Origin: Candidatus Methanoperedens sp. BLZ2
Lineage (GTDB): Archaea > Halobacteriota > Methanosarcinia > Methanosarcinales > Methanoperedenaceae
Direction: 5' to 3'
Length of the DNA: 40,154 nucleotides
Assembly: GCF_002487355.1 (NCBI RefSeq)
Contig: NZ_NTMG01000077.1
Span: 1-40,154, forward strand
Shown: piece after piece, positions 31,424-38,202 of the stretch
How positions within the stretch are numbered: the stretch's first letter is position 1
Layout of the letters: each line of letters opens with the position of its first letter
Notes under the pieces: generated by a model
Told to the model about the DNA's origin: nothing
The model's database searches: none
The model's input: only the letters and a program-made list of their open reading frames with translations
Made by a program: the position numbers and the translations under genes

Positions 31424-32020
31424 TTACTTCTGAAGAGCGTCTGCCAGCTTCACCATCTTGCTCATTCCGTTTTCATATCTGATAATTACGCCTCTTCTTT
31501 CCAAGTCTAGAAGTGTTCTTGAAAGAGTAGATTTTGGAATATCTGCTCTTGATGCAAGCTCAGCTTGGTTCAGTTCACCAAACTCTACAAGTAGTTCTAT
31601 CACTTTTCGATCATTCCCTTTCATAACTTTCAGAATATCCTCCGTATTATATTTTGCTGTTACAGATTCATCAGGAGATTCTACTTGTGGAAGCTTGGCC
31701 AAGTGCACGTTGTCAGTTAAAATATGTTCCAAGTTTTTGCTCAAAGCAGCTTTAGAGTCAAAAAATAGAAGGTACATTGTACTGATTCCGAGTAGACAGG
31801 CAAAAAATGCAGTAATGAACATGTCAGCACGTGTATAAAAGCCTGGAATCTGACTCGCAATTACATCGCTTCCCTCCATAAAAATATTGATGGGCGTAGG
31901 GGTTATCATTTTTATGCCTATCATGAATATAGAGGCTATGAATAACGCAGCCATAAATGCCGTTTTACCATGAATATCCAATATTTCACTTCCAAAACTA
32001 ATTTGCTTTAGTATACGCAT
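31424..32020 (-). CDS. Membrane-anchored winged-helix regulator
   Basis: This 198-residue protein has two N-terminal membrane helices (about 19-40 and 66-88) with a short outer loop between them (NIFMEGSDVIASQIPGF). A linker leads to a C-terminal winged helix (about 132-195: KVIELLVEFGELNQAELAS, PKSTLSRTLLDLERRGVI). This is the reverse order of the regulator at 25038-25643. It is the last gene of a four-gene operon whose promoter shares an element with the nearby ABC-transporter operon. It is therefore the natural candidate to read that element in response to an envelope signal; this is inference. Confidence 0.83.
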   Translation of the reverse strand: MRILKQISFGSEILDIHGKTAFMAALFIASIFMIGIKMITPTPINIFMEGSDVIASQIPGFYTRADMFITAFFACLLGISTMYLLFFDSKAALSKNLEHILTDNVHLAKLPQVESPDESVTAKYNTEDILKVMKGNDRKVIELLVEFGELNQAELASRADIPKSTLSRTLLDLERRGVIIRYENGMSKMVKLADALQK

Positions 32021-32025
32021 GAATC

Positions 32026-32601
32026 TTACTTTTTAGAGTATATAATTGCACCGCCACCGCTTGAATTAATATTAAAACTATTATTTAGCTCTTTTGCTTC
32101 TTCAGTGGTAACTACTTTCTCAGTGCTGAGGTTCACAATAACTTCATAATTTTTTTCCCCTATTACCATGATAACTTTTGCTTCAGAATCTTGCATTACT
32201 CCACTCACTGGTATTGTATATTCCTTCCCGCTGATGAGTTGCTGCACGTTCTCATCGGATTCAACTATTTGAATAGCTTTATCTAATACTTTTTTACTTA
32301 CAGCTCTCTGACTATCTAATTGTTCATCTGTTACGTACTTTATCATGATTTTTTTATTCTTTCCATCATAAAAATACTCGACGCCTTTTACGCCGTCAGG
32401 TAGTTTTATGGTCTGTACTATTTTTTCATCCTGAATTAAATTCACAGTCCCATTATTGCCATCTATTACCGCAACTAATCTGGTTTGAAATCCTACGGGC
32501 AACTGTTCTGATACACCAGTCATATATGCTATTGCGACTATACTTATCCCGATTCCGATCAGTATACCCAATAACCTTGCTTTGGTTTTAATTTCTTTCA
32601 C
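32026..32601 (-). CDS. Membrane-anchored extracytoplasmic protein, hypothetical
   Basis: This 191-residue protein starts at GTG. It has one N-terminal membrane helix (about 9-27, LLGILIGIGISIVAIAYMTG) and an extracytoplasmic part. The middle resembles paired beta/alpha units (SKKVLDKAIQIVESDENVQQ, VIMVIGEKNYEVIVNL), which loosely recalls PepSY-type domains known from protease inhibitors and sensor proteins. I cannot assign a family. It ends 5 bp before the start of the membrane regulator gene, so it may be its co-sensor or signal-binding partner. Confidence 0.68.
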   Translation of the reverse strand: MKEIKTKARLLGILIGIGISIVAIAYMTGVSEQLPVGFQTRLVAVIDGNNGTVNLIQDEKIVQTIKLPDGVKGVEYFYDGKNKKIMIKYVTDEQLDSQRAVSKKVLDKAIQIVESDENVQQLISGKEYTIPVSGVMQDSEAKVIMVIGEKNYEVIVNLSTEKVVTTEEAKELNNSFNINSSGGGAIIYSKK

Positions 32602-32645
32602 TTAATTCACTCTTTTAGCATGTGCATAGTTTGTCACAATAGGTA

Positions 32646-33221
32646 TCAAATTTTAGTGCCGATAGAATTAAACGAGTTTTTAGCCCGTATATATGTATAA
32701 GTATATTCCTCGTACTGTGCTGATGGAGAGAAATATGTAAGAGCATAAAAATAATTATTCTCCTTTGCAATAATCATTGTTTGAGTATAATTTACATCAT
32801 TAAGGGTGTAAGAAACATTAAGTTCTTTACCTTTTGATTTACCCAAAATACTTTCTCTTTTGTAGTTTATTCTTAAATTCTTTGTCTTTTCTTGAAACTG
32901 CTGCATCAAATCTGACACAACATTTTCAGTCGATTCATATTTTCCACCACTATCAATTGATAACAATGCTTGTATGTTTAAAGTAGTGTATCCATCTTTG
33001 GATTTTTTTGGTAAAATGAAGGAAATTCTTGATTCATTTTGAACAACTTCCCAGTCGGCCGGATACTCGATAGATATATTGAATTCACTATCTGTGTATG
33101 TTGTAAAGTTTATAGGCTTCCCATAAGTAGCATTATTTTCATTCTTAGCGTTGTAGATGCATCCATTAATCAGTAATATTGACAAGAGTATGATGCTAAC
33201 TTTTGTGTATTTGATCCTAAT
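32646..33221 (-). CDS. Secreted lipoprotein, PsbP/DUF1795-like
   Basis: The mature part reads SEFNISIEYPADWEVVQN, a common start of PsbP-like lipoproteins, with a beta-rich body and YFYALTYFSPSAQYEEY near the end. The signal sequence RIKYTKVSIILLSILLINGC, with the lipobox cysteine, is complete only when translation starts upstream of the nearest TTG (33185). A perfect AGGAGGT (33228-33234) is spaced six bases from an in-frame ATT at 33221, so I take ATT as the start. ATT starts are rare; a lost ATG or a read error is the alternative. It lies 90 bp after the small secreted protein gene in the same operon. Confidence 0.72.
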   Translation of the reverse strand: MRIKYTKVSIILLSILLINGCIYNAKNENNATYGKPINFTTYTDSEFNISIEYPADWEVVQNESRISFILPKKSKDGYTTLNIQALLSIDSGGKYESTENVVSDLMQQFQEKTKNLRINYKRESILGKSKGKELNVSYTLNDVNYTQTMIIAKENNYFYALTYFSPSAQYEEYTYTYIRAKNSFNSIGTKI

Positions 33222-33311
33222 TTTTATACCTCCTGAAAAATAAAAAAATTAAGTCGGCTAAATAATAGCCAACCAAAATTTTATATATTCATCTGTTATA
33301 TACCTATTAGC

Positions 33312-33665
33312 TTACCAATAGCTACATGATACAGAAGTGCCGCTAGATTGTGCACTCGCACCGCCGCCATAGTTAGGTGATGATGCACTGCAACTCCAAC
33401 CTGTTCGGTAATTTGTTGCTGATGCATAGTGGTATGTAACTGCTGCAAATGCATCTATTGTTTCAGAGGGCTTTGATGTATCTGCATTCAGGCTACCATT
33501 CCCATCTATTGTAACTGTGGGACTATTGCTACTATTGACCAGCGCTTTGGTGCCATCAGTGTTTATTTTATATGTAGTCACTTCTGCACTTGCTGGGAAT
33601 GCTACTGCCACTACCATTAGAAGCATTGCAATCCCCACAACCTTAATCATTGATGTTTTCCTCAT
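33312..33665 (-). CDS. Small secreted protein with two cysteines
   Basis: This 117-residue protein has a strong signal peptide (VGIAMLLMVVAVAFPASA, cut after about residue 27) and a mature part of about 90 residues rich in S, T, N, G and A. The end, YHYASATNYRTGWSCSASS followed by a Ser/Gly stretch and SVSCSYW, has two cysteines that could form a disulfide and a terminal Trp. It follows a perfect AGGAGG ribosome site and the shared TGGAAC promoter element. I do not recognise the family. It could be a secreted peptide, toxin or adhesin; the pattern Y-H..R-x-G-W loosely recalls lactococcin 972-type bacteriocins, but this is weak. Confidence 0.75.
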   Translation of the reverse strand: MRKTSMIKVVGIAMLLMVVAVAFPASAEVTTYKINTDGTKALVNSSNSPTVTIDGNGSLNADTSKPSETIDAFAAVTYHYASATNYRTGWSCSASSPNYGGGASAQSSGTSVSCSYW

Positions 33666-34166
33666 TTCTTTTCACCTCCTTTTCTTTTTGTCATGCTGCG
33701 CTTTGTGCTCGCATGCCAAACCAGCCTAAGGTGGAACAGCCAAAATATGTAATGTGGAACAATCGTTCCAAAAAATGGAACAACTATAAAACCGTGATCT
33801 AAAAGACATTTCCAGGTAAATTCATAAAAGCAACAATAATGATATCCATATTATTTTGCACAAAATCAGATCGTGTATCCTCATGAATTGTTTTTTCTCC
33901 GAATAACGATGCCTAAAAAAATGGAAATCAGACTAAAATAAAGTCGCTATTATGGGTCATACCATTGCTCTCAGTAAAAATCCAGATGAAATATTCGATC
34001 AGTATATCGGTTCTGAAATCGACATCGGCAGTAGAAGCAACGGTTTCTTACAGACGAGCGAATAAAGTATATAATATACATGGACTGGATACCTTAAAGA
34101 CTTCCAGTCCGAACTCTGCACAATCGTATTTTATAGACTATTTACCTTGGAATTTTCCTTAAAGCT
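33666..34166. other. 501-bp intergenic region with regulatory element and small ORF
   Basis: Nearest the secreted protein gene lie its ribosome site and the TGGAAC element (33732-33801). Further right is an A/T-rich stretch with a 37-codon open frame at 33952-34065 on the plus strand (MGHTIALSKNPDEIFDQYIG and on), which has no clear ribosome site. A palindrome GTATATAATATAC lies at about 34067-34079. Nothing else is recognised; the ORF may be the remains of a longer gene. Confidence 0.45.
33732..33801 (-). promoter_or_regulatory. TGGAAC promoter element, copy A
   Basis: TGGAAC occurs at 33732-33737, 33755-33760 and 33776-33781, with an additional GTTCCA at 33765-33770. The sequence between the first two (AGCCAAAATATGTAATG) and after them is almost identical to copy B at 37755-37824, including the spacings of 23 and 21 bp and a trailing AACCGT. 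It lies upstream of the minus-strand gene at 33312-33665. Confidence 0.85.
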
Positions 34167-35141
34167 CTATAATGTTATATCCTGCCTCATGAAAGCCATA
34201 TAAGACATCAACAACAGGATTACAGGAATAACCATCAATACAATCAGGTTAACCCAATTCTGCTCTAGCCAGTAGCCAAAAGTGAAGCCTGTATCAAATA
34301 GGCCTTGCATCTCAGAAGGCGTCTCATCTGGCCTACCGCCAGGAGCAATGAACTGTATTCCAGATTTCTGAGGTCCTGTTACGAGTTCAATAAAATGTAT
34401 GGAGGGAGATATAGACATAATATTCTGGGCAATTTTATCTCTCTTTTCCATTTTTTCCATAGAAGAAGGATCATCCGAAGATACCTCAAACATCTTTTGC
34501 TCCCCTGTAATTATCCCTGCTGCCGTGTACGCAATCGTACTTAGAAGCAAACCGAGCACTAGCCATACCACAATACTGTAAATAAGTGAATCTGATGACT
34601 CCTTTGTAAAAGTAGACAGAGCTACAGAGAGTGCCAGATAGCTCAACATAAATAAAAATGCCAGAATTATAAACACAATTATCCTGCCAATAAACTCTGC
34701 TGATATCGTTATCCCGGACACACCAAGCATCACACCCATGGATGCCCCAACTGCAATAAATACTACTAAACCAAGCATAATCATCATACCAATAAGCTTG
34801 CCTGTAATCACCTGGTCTCTATAGACAGGATGCGTTAGAAGCACATTAAGCGAGCCTGATTTCCTCTCTTTGACAATAGCGTCAAATCCGAGTATGATTG
34901 CTGTCAAAGAGCCAAGCATGCTCATCTGGGATGCGAAACTCATAAAACCCATCGTAAGTGGAGAAAGACCTCCAAAGTCGCCCATACGTGGCATACCAGA
35001 AATATTCTGTCCTGCTTGATACCCGTTCACAAGAAGTGCTATCATAAATACTCCCAGAATCAAATAGAACCTTGGACTCCAGAGGCTGTCAGCAAACTCT
35101 TTTTGCGCTATCACGAAAACATTTTCAATATTTCGTTTCAT
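34167..35141 (-). CDS. ABC-2-type transporter permease
   Basis: This 324-residue membrane protein has six hydrophobic segments, starting with YLILGVFMIALLVNG and ending with NLIVLMVIPVILLLMSYMAF. The sequence EFADSLWSPRF near the N-terminus and KERKSGSLNVLLTHPVYRDQ after the second helix are typical of NosY/ABC-2 permeases. A long loop between helices 5 and 6 (about 215-290) lies outside the core. The gene follows the ATPase gene by 20 bp and is last in its operon. What it moves is unknown; a surface protein gene in the same operon suggests an envelope substrate or immunity role. Confidence 0.92.
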   Translation of the reverse strand: MKRNIENVFVIAQKEFADSLWSPRFYLILGVFMIALLVNGYQAGQNISGMPRMGDFGGLSPLTMGFMSFASQMSMLGSLTAIILGFDAIVKERKSGSLNVLLTHPVYRDQVITGKLIGMMIMLGLVVFIAVGASMGVMLGVSGITISAEFIGRIIVFIILAFLFMLSYLALSVALSTFTKESSDSLIYSIVVWLVLGLLLSTIAYTAAGIITGEQKMFEVSSDDPSSMEKMEKRDKIAQNIMSISPSIHFIELVTGPQKSGIQFIAPGGRPDETPSEMQGLFDTGFTFGYWLEQNWVNLIVLMVIPVILLLMSYMAFMRQDITL

Positions 35142-35161
35142 AATTCACCTCAATATAAATC

Positions 35162-36130
35162 TTACGCCATCTCCTCTATCAGCTTCAGGAACACCCTCTG
35201 CAAATCCATTCTTTCTTCCTCGAATCTTGATATGACTCCACCCATCAAATTTACTTCCATAGCTATTTCCATACGTGCACCTAAATCCGTAAGAAGTGAT
35301 ACATGACCATTCACGGGCTCCACCGAACGCACACATTTCAATCTTTTCAAGCCCTCTATAACTCTCTGCACTGGCAAATTCTGGACTTCAAGGGCATACC
35401 TGATGCCTACCTTTTCCCTTACTTTGTCCCTGAGTTCTTCTACCGTACCTACGGCAAGCAGCTTACCGCGTGAAATCACACCAATTCTGTCGCATATCTC
35501 CTCAACCTCCGCCATGCTGTGGCTGCTCAGGAACACTGTTACTCCTTTTTCTTTGCTGAGCTTCTTAATCAAATCCCGCATCATCTGGGCACCAAGAGGA
35601 TCGATACCGCTTGTAGGCTCGTCCAGGAACAGAACACCTGGCTCATTTATCAACGCCTGGGCAAGACCGAAACGCTTTCTCATGCCAGTTGAAAATCCGC
35701 CTGTTCTCTGGTCTATAGCACGGCTAAGACCCACCAGTTCGAGCAGGTCAACAATCCGCTTCTCTCTCGTCTTTTCATCGATATCATAGAGCTTTGCATA
35801 GAACCTGAGGTTCTGCCTTGCAGTGAGGTTGTCATAATATCCAGCAGGTTCAGGCAAAACTCCTGTGGCTTCCCTTATCTTGATGACTTCTCTCACGATG
35901 TCGAAGCCTGCTACCTTGCCAGAGCCGCCTGTAGGCTCAAGCAAGCCTATAAGCATCTTCATTGTGGTGGTCTTGCCTGCGCCATTGGGACCAACGAAGC
36001 CAAAGACTTCGCCTTTTTTAACGCTCAGGTTAAGCGAATCCACTGCTACAACCTCATTTTTCTTACCAAAACGCTTGGTAAGATTTATGGTTTCTATAAT
36101 GTTTTCATTTTGACTGATTTCTTTATTCAT
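35162..36130 (-). CDS. ABC transporter ATP-binding protein
   Basis: This 322-residue ATPase carries Walker A GPNGAGKTTTMKMLIG, the signature helix FSTGMRKRFGLAQAL (a degenerate LSGGQ), Walker B GVLFLDEPTSGIDP and the H-loop LSSHSMAEVEE. The last 90 residues form the extra C-terminal domain found in drug- and Na+-export ATPases of the CcmA/NatA type. It lies 2 bp after the NEW3-like protein gene and 20 bp before the permease gene, so all three are expected on one transcript. Confidence 0.95.
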   Translation of the reverse strand: MNKEISQNENIIETINLTKRFGKKNEVVAVDSLNLSVKKGEVFGFVGPNGAGKTTTMKMLIGLLEPTGGSGKVAGFDIVREVIKIREATGVLPEPAGYYDNLTARQNLRFYAKLYDIDEKTREKRIVDLLELVGLSRAIDQRTGGFSTGMRKRFGLAQALINEPGVLFLDEPTSGIDPLGAQMMRDLIKKLSKEKGVTVFLSSHSMAEVEEICDRIGVISRGKLLAVGTVEELRDKVREKVGIRYALEVQNLPVQRVIEGLKRLKCVRSVEPVNGHVSLLTDLGARMEIAMEVNLMGGVISRFEEERMDLQRVFLKLIEEMA

Positions 36131-36132
36131 AT

Positions 36133-37725
36133 CTATCTTCTTCCAAATTTACGTATTATAAATACCAGTGCAATAATAGCCAGCACCACCATCCCGATTC
36201 CTGCCACCCCGCTTGAACCGGATTTTTCCACATTTACTTTAATGCTCTTTTCCTCGCCCTGGATATCGCCGCTCTTGGCACGCATAAATATCTCTTTTAT
36301 TCCTGAGCCTGCGTCTGCTCTCGCTGTGATTTCAACTGGAATATTCCTTGATTCGCCAGCCTCCAGTTTTTCTATTGTCCCGAAGCTCCTGATCTCAGTG
36401 CTGATGCCGCTGACTTCCTGAATCTCAAGCTGCACATTGCTCAAAGCCTCATCCCCTCCGTTTCTTAAGGTTACCCTGATTTCTGTTGAGCCGCCTGGAT
36501 TTAAAGTCACATCATTGTAACTCGGATAAAGGCTGAGTATCTGGCTTTTCTCAAGACCTTTATTGACAGTGACCTCAAGTCTCTGGGATACGCTCCTGTC
36601 ATCCCCGCTCACAGCACCCACAAGTACAGGATAGATTCCATCGCTGGCATTCAGGGAAGGTTTGATCTTTACCTTGAACTTCTGCTCGCCTTTGGCTGGC
36701 AGCTCAAGCATGGTCAGTCTCACATCATCATCCGTATCTGAGAGGAATTCGACATTCCAACCTTGCGGCTTATCCAGCGCTTTCAGGTTCAGCTTAAGCT
36801 GCTGGTCGTACCTGTTTTTCAGGGATACGGCAAACTCTGCTGTATTCTCAGGCCGGACTTCAAGACCTGCTATAGCCGAGCGCATTTCAAGATATGCGCT
36901 CAACGCCTGGGTTGGATCAAGCTCAGGATTAATGGTAACACTTAGCGGCAGTGAGATGACCTGGCTGCTGCTGTCCATGGACGCTCCTACCAGCACTTCA
37001 TAATCCCCGTCGGTTGGATTGGTTGGAGGCTGGGCGACAACCTCAAAATCCTGCTTGCTTTTTGCAGGAATACTCATTTTTGTGATCCTTGCGCCGTCTG
37101 AAGAGAGCATGTCCACGCCCCATCCATCTGGCTTTGAGAGCACTGAGAGCTTTACTGTCGCCCTGCTGTCGTATTTATTCTCAACCGTTACGCTGAACCT
37201 GGCAGGAATGCCCGGATGGGTTTTTCTGCCGGGTATGCCTGAGTATATGTCAAGGTTAGGCATGGCGTTCCTGTCCACGATCGCGGCAAAATCACGGTAT
37301 ATCAATTCATAATTGGTAACATCCTCGCCAAAAGGCTGCAACCCTATCCTTATCAGGTAGGAGCCATCGCTGGTGTTGGCTGGCACCCGCACTCTCAGAA
37401 CAACCTGCTTTGAATCGGTTGAGCCTGCCGGGAAGGTTACCTGGCTTACCTGGTTGTTATCCGCGTAGAAGCCGGCAAGCCAGTCGTCTGGTTTTTTATC
37501 TATGAATAGCTTGACTGAAACGCTTTTTGTGGTATTGTAGAATTTTTGCAGTGTTGTTGTGAATTCAACGGTGTCACCAGGGCGAACGACTTTGCCAGTT
37601 ATGTCTGAAGTGGCTGATATCTGGGAGAATTCGGCTGTAGCTAATGGTATCAGGAGTAATGTGAGGGTTGCTATAACCATGAATATTTTAAAGATTGAAG
37701 ACGGTACTAATTTTCTTTTTGTCAT
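36133..37725 (-). CDS. Surface protein with repeated NEW3-like Ig domains
   Basis: This 530-residue protein has a signal peptide (IFKIFMVIATLTLLLIPLATA), four or so Ig-like beta domains, and a C-terminal membrane anchor (VAGIGMVVLAIIALVFII) with a basic tail. The repeats share RPGDTVEF or RPENTAEF-type openings, a DGWGVDMLSSDG or QGWNVEFLSDT strand and a SDGSYLIRIG or SDGIYPVLVG end, as in NEW3 (alpha-galactosidase-associated) domains. They would stand outside the membrane. Archaeal ABC-2 operons often have such a protein as an outer partner. It heads the operon and follows copy B of the TGGAAC element. Confidence 0.9.
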   Translation of the reverse strand: MTKRKLVPSSIFKIFMVIATLTLLLIPLATAEFSQISATSDITGKVVRPGDTVEFTTTLQKFYNTTKSVSVKLFIDKKPDDWLAGFYADNNQVSQVTFPAGSTDSKQVVLRVRVPANTSDGSYLIRIGLQPFGEDVTNYELIYRDFAAIVDRNAMPNLDIYSGIPGRKTHPGIPARFSVTVENKYDSRATVKLSVLSKPDGWGVDMLSSDGARITKMSIPAKSKQDFEVVAQPPTNPTDGDYEVLVGASMDSSSQVISLPLSVTINPELDPTQALSAYLEMRSAIAGLEVRPENTAEFAVSLKNRYDQQLKLNLKALDKPQGWNVEFLSDTDDDVRLTMLELPAKGEQKFKVKIKPSLNASDGIYPVLVGAVSGDDRSVSQRLEVTVNKGLEKSQILSLYPSYNDVTLNPGGSTEIRVTLRNGGDEALSNVQLEIQEVSGISTEIRSFGTIEKLEAGESRNIPVEITARADAGSGIKEIFMRAKSGDIQGEEKSIKVNVEKSGSSGVAGIGMVVLAIIALVFIIRKFGRR

Positions 37726-37754
37726 ATTATATCAGACGCTGAAGTATCATGTGA

Positions 37755-37824
37755 TGGAACAGCTAAAATATGTAATGTGGAACAAGCAATCTAAAAAATG
37801 GAACGCTCATGAAACCGTAAACTA
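37755..37824 (-). promoter_or_regulatory. TGGAAC promoter element, copy B
   Basis: TGGAAC occurs at 37755-37760, 37778-37783 and 37799-37804, with the same 23- and 21-bp spacings as copy A and near-identical sequence between. The inverted GTTCCA of copy A is not kept here. It begins 30 bp upstream of the ATG of the NEW3-like gene, which is read leftward. Confidence 0.85.
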
Positions 37825-37916
37825 ACGGCATTGCCTGTTATATTAATAACAACAAGTAATGATAGGATGATCAAATTAACACACTGACATAGATGCTTGC
37901 CAAGGGTCGTTGACTA

Positions 37917-37959: not shown

Positions 37960-38202
37960 ATGGTAGAAAAAACAACAATCAGGCCAAAGATACAGGATTT
38001 AAAAATAGGGGATGTCCTGCATGTGGGGACAGAAGAGAAAGGGGAGATATTTAAAGTGACAAAACTCGGTGAAAATACTTTCATTTACGACCAGGGCGGC
38101 GATCTTAAGGAATATGGCAGGGCGGTAATGGCCAAAAATATCTTCGGTTTTGCGGAGAAGTACAAGGCAGTCTACTGGATAACGAGAGATGAGGAAAAAT
38201 AA
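37960..38202 (+). CDS. Hypothetical protein, small beta-rich
   Basis: This 80-residue protein reads as a compact beta fold: IQDLKIGDVLHVGTEEKGEI, then FKVTKLGENTFIYDQGG, and a hydrophobic C-terminal strand (YKAVYWITRDEE). No signal or membrane segment is visible, so it is cytoplasmic. I do not recognise the family. It is monocistronic with its own promoter and converges on the large membrane protein gene 9 bp downstream of its stop. Confidence 0.7.
   Translation: MVEKTTIRPKIQDLKIGDVLHVGTEEKGEIFKVTKLGENTFIYDQGGDLKEYGRAVMAKNIFGFAEKYKAVYWITRDEEK

Follow-up and report, generated by a model that had tools for sequence, protein, structure and literature searches.

A Putative Operator-Promoter Element of a Membrane-Anchored Winged-Helix Regulator in Front of Two Operons of Candidatus Methanoperedens

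Two Operons Headed by a Common Element

The stretch of DNA analysed here (the window) is the entire contig NZ_NTMG01000077.1 (C38; 40,154 nt) of the Candidatus Methanoperedens sp. BLZ2 genome (G000; 3,735,583 bases, 85 contigs, 99.99% complete). It contains two operons on the minus strand, encoding a NEW3 protein, an ABC ATPase, and an ABC-2 permease (37725 to 34167), and a small secreted protein (SEC), a lipoprotein-like protein (LIPO), a membrane protein (MEM), and a membrane-anchored winged-helix protein (REG; 33665 to 31424), respectively. Both are preceded by the same 50-bp element. Taken as a whole, the observations are best explained, in our opinion with good confidence, by the element being the operator-promoter of REG, which would control its own operon and, where the promoter was copied, the NEW3/ABC-2 operon. 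The evidence throughout is sequence comparison among draft genomes, comprising sets of 34 genomes of the family, 186 of the order, and 238 of the class, with related records named as Candidatus Methanoperedens, Methanoperedenaceae, and ANME-2 (anaerobic methanotrophic) cluster archaea and with one Methanofollis. Gene calls agree with those of the original prediction (SEC 117 aa, LIPO 179 aa, MEM 191 aa, REG 198 aa, NEW3 530 aa, ATPase 322 aa, and permease 324 aa).

The element follows the pattern TGGAAC-N17-TGGAAC-N15-TGGAAC with half-sites starting at 0, 23, and 44, and the identical spacings of 23 and 21 bp claimed earlier for both operons were recovered in exact copies. Element 1 (33732..33781, minus strand; half-sites 33732-33737, 33755-33760, and 33776-33781) heads the SEC-LIPO-MEM-REG operon and includes a TATA-like core, ATATTTT, at about 33742-33748 as well as a fourth, inverted half-site at 33765-33770. 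Element 2 (37755..37804, minus strand), which has the same three half-sites and TATA-like core, heads the NEW3-ATPase-permease operon. Read in the order of transcription, the predicted operator/promoter consists of GTTCCA, inverted TGGAAC, GTTCCA, ATATTTT, and GTTCCA, with half-sites about two helical turns apart that flank the core on both sides. The inverted half-site gives rise to a palindrome, TGGAACN4RTTCCA, which is kept in most relatives and degraded in the NEW3 copy. The distance between element and start codon amounts to 30 bp in case of NEW3 and to 67 bp, including the ribosome-binding site, in case of SEC.

In the whole genome the exact pattern occurs only in these two copies. No other site was found at 0-1 mismatch, the next best match having 2 mismatches, and a stricter pattern including the TATA core returned the same two sites even with 3 mismatches allowed, while the chance expectation for exact copies is about 9e-5. 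A genome-wide motif was rejected on this basis, and an occurrence in front of many unrelated genes, named at the outset as an observation that would break the link between the operons, was not encountered. Further candidates were discarded. Seven exact matches on viral contigs, considered with regard to viruses and plasmid-like elements, show no likeness beyond the half-sites and no linked genes, and matches with 1-2 mismatches in G001, G006, G034, G069, G172, G180, and others remain under 15 bits compared to 60.7-74.5 bits for true copies. Divergent control of an 80-aa gene at 37960 is possible in G000 and G032, but this gene is not situated beside the element elsewhere.

Distribution of the Element and of REG

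Within the family, the element is exact in G000, G011, and G032 and differs by two changes in G003, and convincing further copies were identified among the class genomes in G046, G077, and G081. Exact or 1-mismatch elements are those of G011, G032, G046, G077, and G081, and variants with a 1-nt indel are present in G072 and G036. Four families are represented in all, and nearly all elements of the relatives precede a gene encoding a signal-peptide protein. Among the order genomes, REG orthologs were found in G000, G046 (68% identity), G032 (56%), G072 (48%), G077 (47%), G011 (43%), and G036 (winged helix alone). The element is present in all 7 Methanosarcinales genomes with a REG ortholog and heads the regulator's own operon in 6 of them. 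Element and REG share two genome locations, a prephenate dehydrogenase locus in G000 and G032 and a different locus in G011. Downstream of REG, near the contig end in G077 (L111:134-183), there is another stretch with weaker resemblance to the element.

The element was detected at 7 of 8 ortholog loci compared to none of the 22 stretches searched that carry REG paralogs (Fisher 3.9e-6), and the chance overlap of REG orthologs with elements is about 3e-9, both values ignoring kinship and thus overstating independence. This comparison across four families lends strong support to the idea that the element is read by the membrane regulator. Furthermore, the recognition helix and wing of REG (IPKSTLSR..DLE.R ... 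RYENGMSKMVKL) are near-invariant across element-bearing genomes and diverged in G005 and G006, both of which lack the element. Very probably, the element is bound by REG, which controls the operon it belongs to. Due to the fact that G046, a member of another family, holds the closest REG, SEC, LIPO, and MEM, horizontal transfer of the module between families is suggested.

The SEC-LIPO-MEM-REG Operon

According to hydropathy and a structure model, REG (31424..32020, minus strand) has two N-terminal transmembrane (TM) helices (about 16-39 and 64-88) that enclose a short extracytoplasmic hairpin. A flexible linker connects them to a winged helix of the MarR/DUF7343 type at the C-terminus (126-192). 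The DNA-binding domain is recognised above cut-off by PF13412, DUF7343, and MarR, and fold comparison yielded structural matches to MarR/ArsR-type DNA-binding domains. Paralogous membrane winged-helix regulators were observed beside other envelope systems, i.e., a CARDB protein with a MacB-like ABC system, beta-propeller proteins, and ABC-2 operons (L141, L132, and L064). In G006 (L064, upstream of 8360) and G005 (L065, upstream of 8263), the diverged REG-MEM pairs have a different palindrome in common, CCAGTTGGAWACTGG, which is followed at a distance of about 25 bp by a GTTYCA-like repeat. Possibly, this palindrome is the operator of these pairs.

SEC (33312..33665, minus strand) carries its own Sec-type signal peptide, and its mature part is rich in Ser, Thr, and Tyr with two cysteines near the C-terminus. 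A relative was found only in G046, where it is likewise located behind the element. SEC did not match any known precursor, bacteriocin, or toxin family in Pfam, NCBIfam, or PHROGs, and by sequence no bacteriocin, toxin, or solved-structure matches were obtained for SEC, MEM, and REG. LIPO (32646..33185, minus strand, as listed from TTG) is lipoprotein-like with a LINGC lipobox and weakly PsbP-like, below cut-off. The gene lacks an ATG, and due to a ribosome-binding site near 33225 (window 32646-33225) the true start is probably a non-ATG codon upstream (ATT or similar).

MEM (32026..32601, minus strand) consists of one N-terminal TM helix and an extracytoplasmic alpha/beta module with the motif A..IA..D..V......K.Y.I. 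A relationship to PepSY was not substantiated, as there is no Pfam match, the model is poor (mean pLDDT, i.e., predicted local distance difference test, of 52), and the best fold matches are not significant. In the order-wide search, MEM homologs adjoin REG in 4 out of 4 cases, and since they were found only there, MEM is probably a co-sensor or modulator of REG in the style of ToxS/TcpH. In G036 (L119:5447-6124) a MEM-like extracytoplasmic domain is joined directly to the winged helix of REG, the second TM helix being absent, probably as a product of deletion.

The NEW3/ABC-2 Operon and Its Copies

NEW3 (36133..37725, minus strand) is composed of a signal peptide, Ig-like/NEW3 repeats, and a C-terminal TM anchor. 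The adjoining ABC ATPase (35162..36130, minus strand) is DrrA/CcmA-like and stays below the curated cut-offs (TIGR01188, 279.5 of 312.45 bits; TIGR03740, 194.9 of 309.75 bits), and the ABC-2 permease (34167..35141, minus strand) belongs to PF12679 and is of the NosY type. The NEW3-ATPase pair occurs in three copies in G000 (window 34167-37725 and contigs C36 and C58, i.e., L090 and L089) with 84-88% DNA identity in different gene contexts, which suggests recombination or gene conversion between them. On C36 and C58 the pair is preceded by a small secreted protein, a PD40/WD40 beta-propeller protein, and two permeases. In other places, too, this multi-copy unit is situated behind different small secreted proteins and beta-propeller proteins as well as one or two permeases and lacks the element, which was not found in the examined stretches before the copies on C58 and C36 and in G002, G018, G011 (C102), G059, G043, and G001. 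An element-bearing NEW3/ABC operon is present in G000, in a second Methanoperedens genome, and, with a decayed element, in a third genome without the regulator.

NEW3 and REG operons occur together in G000, G011, and G072. In case of G011, contigs C194 and C42 overlap at their ends by 98 identical bp, and the joined order is element, NEW3, ATPase, permease, element, small secreted protein, element, lipoproteins, MEM, and REG. This is the layout of the window plus one extra gene, elsewhere in the genome and with three elements. In G072, which belongs to another family, the NEW3/ABC operon has the same orientation as element and regulator and precedes them at a distance of a few genes.

Proposed Regulation and Alternative Explanations

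We propose that REG, a one-component regulator with a membrane anchor and a winged helix, has its operator-promoter in the 50-bp element and would bind the GTTCCA half-sites flanking the TATA-like core. REG would thereby control its own operon, comprising the genes of a fast-changing secreted protein, a lipoprotein, MEM, and REG itself, and also the NEW3/ABC-2 operon in those genomes with a promoter copy in front of it. MEM, a single-pass protein with an extracytoplasmic domain, probably acts as co-sensor or modulator of REG for a presumed signal. Since half-sites are situated on both sides of the TATA core, we infer that repression or dual control is more likely than simple activation. The pump had been regarded as a possible exporter of the secreted product; this role is weakened, because SEC has a Sec-type signal and need not be exported by it. 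Most likely, the ABC-2/NEW3 complex acts on envelope or secreted material, by handling or maturing it or by giving protection against it, instead of exporting SEC.

Several observations weigh against this explanation. The NEW3/ABC operon is absent or fragmentary in three REG-keeping genomes: G032 has the regulator operon without the NEW3 operon at the same prephenate dehydrogenase locus as G000, no NEW3 operon is present on the contig of G077, and G046 contains NEW3 fragments only, located elsewhere. G072 lacks MEM beside REG. In G046, element and regulator are on different contigs; the element is placed in front of SEC, and judging by gene order the end of this contig appears to abut the start of the one carrying REG. 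G081 has the element and no regulator was found, the genome being 72% complete. The Methanofollis REG ortholog (36%) has nearly the same DNA-binding helix in a genome without the element. Finally, both copies of the window are duplicates and part of their likeness is due to descent. Consequently, of the idea that both operons form one system, a single regulon in this genome, and probably in G011, was retained, and one necessary system is not supported, given G032, G046, and G077. Correspondingly, the search of relatives for the gene set and the motif showed that element and REG recur together and that the NEW3/ABC operon is not constant. Being absent from REG genomes and common without the element, this operon appears as an optional recruit to the regulon, the core of which consists of the element, the secreted first gene, MEM, and REG.

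A refinement of the favoured explanation would have the product as a secreted antimicrobial or self-recognition protein, accompanied by a dedicated self-protection ABC-2 pump under a membrane sensor. The first product is indeed short, Sec-secreted, and nearly unalignable between genomes while REG stays 43-68% identical; the spread is patchy with likely transfer between families (G046 regulator 68% versus 43-56% within the family); small secreted proteins precede NEW3/ABC copies in other places as well; and the ATPase resembles, below cut-offs, lantibiotic-protection and drug-resistance ATPases. However, known bacteriocin or toxin families were not matched, the pump is missing from several genomes that keep secreted protein and regulator, and the first products of G077 and G081 are acidic or truncated, which leaves this refinement possible but doubtful. 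In broader terms, the patchy spread of a transferred module whose secreted product changes fast is suggestive of conflict or surface interaction, for which family and structure searches provided no toxin, bacteriocin, or structural match. Tentatively, and as a rather speculative option, we consider a hitherto undescribed archaeal conflict or surface-identity module, in which the MEM and REG sensor pair would switch on, via a dedicated operator, a hypervariable secreted protein and in some lineages also a recruited NEW3/ABC-2 self-protection complex, with new cargo genes captured by duplication of the operator (three operators in G011).

Alternatively, the element might be a mere duplicated promoter, copied from one operon to the other by segmental duplication without a shared regulator still acting on both. 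The duplication as such is well visible: elements 1 and 2 are identical in 45 of 50 positions, and because the likeness extends beyond them (33732..33844 versus 37755-37864, 79% identity over 114 bp) they represent one duplicated promoter rather than two independent motifs. In addition, the inverted half-site was lost in the NEW3 copy, and a 15-bp stretch, ATGACAAAAAGAAAA, of the SEC leader (33680..33694, minus strand) recurs in the first NEW3 codons (37711-37725), which may be a relic of duplication or chance. But three half-sites and the core remained intact in both copies while the flank drifted to about 70%, G011 retains three elements including one before the NEW3 gene, and loss or truncation of the regulator goes along with decayed elements, as in G003 (REG not found, half-site decayed) and G036 (regulator truncated and fused to a MEM-like domain, element with indel), so that we regard this alternative as unlikely. 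Still less likely is that the element is read by a general transcription factor or by some unlinked regulator other than REG, with REG as an operon passenger, as the Methanofollis case might indicate. The element tracks REG orthologs over two genome locations and four families and does not occur at paralog loci, and a general factor is ruled out by the low number of two copies per genome.

Comparison with Known Systems

Transmembrane transcription regulators are a known and widespread kind in bacteria and archaea, with about four per archaeal genome (PMC10269533). REG likewise joins a DNA-binding domain and TM helices in one protein; its family differs by the C-terminal winged helix, the two N-terminal helices, and a defined, albeit predicted, operator. 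A published description of the REG family or its operator was not found in the literature searched. The earlier statement that no archaeal system with these parts has been described therefore stands with regard to that literature, with the restriction that archaeal regulators of this general kind are known. Similar to REG, ArnR/ArnR1 of Sulfolobus acidocaldarius is an archaeal membrane-bound one-component regulator associated with repeated promoter boxes and surface-structure genes, but ArnR has an N-terminal helix-turn-helix, HAMP-like and sensor domains, and two C-terminal helices and targets archaellum and pili (PMC6396743). REG deviates from the domain order of the ArnR family, its helices being N-terminal and its winged helix C-terminal.

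ToxR/TcpP-type regulators possess an N-terminal winged helix. In Vibrio, ToxS and TcpH are the partners of ToxR and TcpP (PMC7496328, PMC11323476), and a membrane-anchored regulator is encoded beside a single-pass extracytoplasmic partner, as is the case for REG and MEM. This comparison is one of layout only. The winged helix of REG is of the MarR/DUF7343 type and C-terminal instead of OmpR-type and N-terminal. With the NosDFY, DrrAB, and Gld ABC-2 systems the window shares a PF12679 NosY-type permease, a CcmA/DrrA-like ATPase, and an extracytoplasmic partner, except that a NEW3 protein takes the place of NosD/GldG and the ATPase is below the DrrA, GldA, and lantibiotic-protection cut-offs. 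Archaeal dark-matter islands contain arCOG00194 ABC systems with variable cassettes (PMC4158269). Similarities are the ABC ATPase, the permease, a diverged extracytoplasmic protein, and variable neighbours, and in contrast to the window no membrane regulator or shared operator is noted in the passages considered.

Conclusions

Based on comparative genomics, the REG system is best read as a new archaeal one-component regulator of the transmembrane kind, with a very small envelope regulon that would include its own gene and whose first product is secreted and changes fast. Operators are known for very few archaeal membrane-bound transcription factors, and the system offers a complete, compact, and testable unit in which a 198-aa regulator is combined with a 50-bp operator and with two target operons. 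Natural variants, i.e., indels, lost half-sites, and lost or fused regulators, predict which bases and residues matter. The system would illustrate growth of a regulon by promoter duplication in uncultured methane-oxidising archaea and may provide a handle on their envelope sensing.

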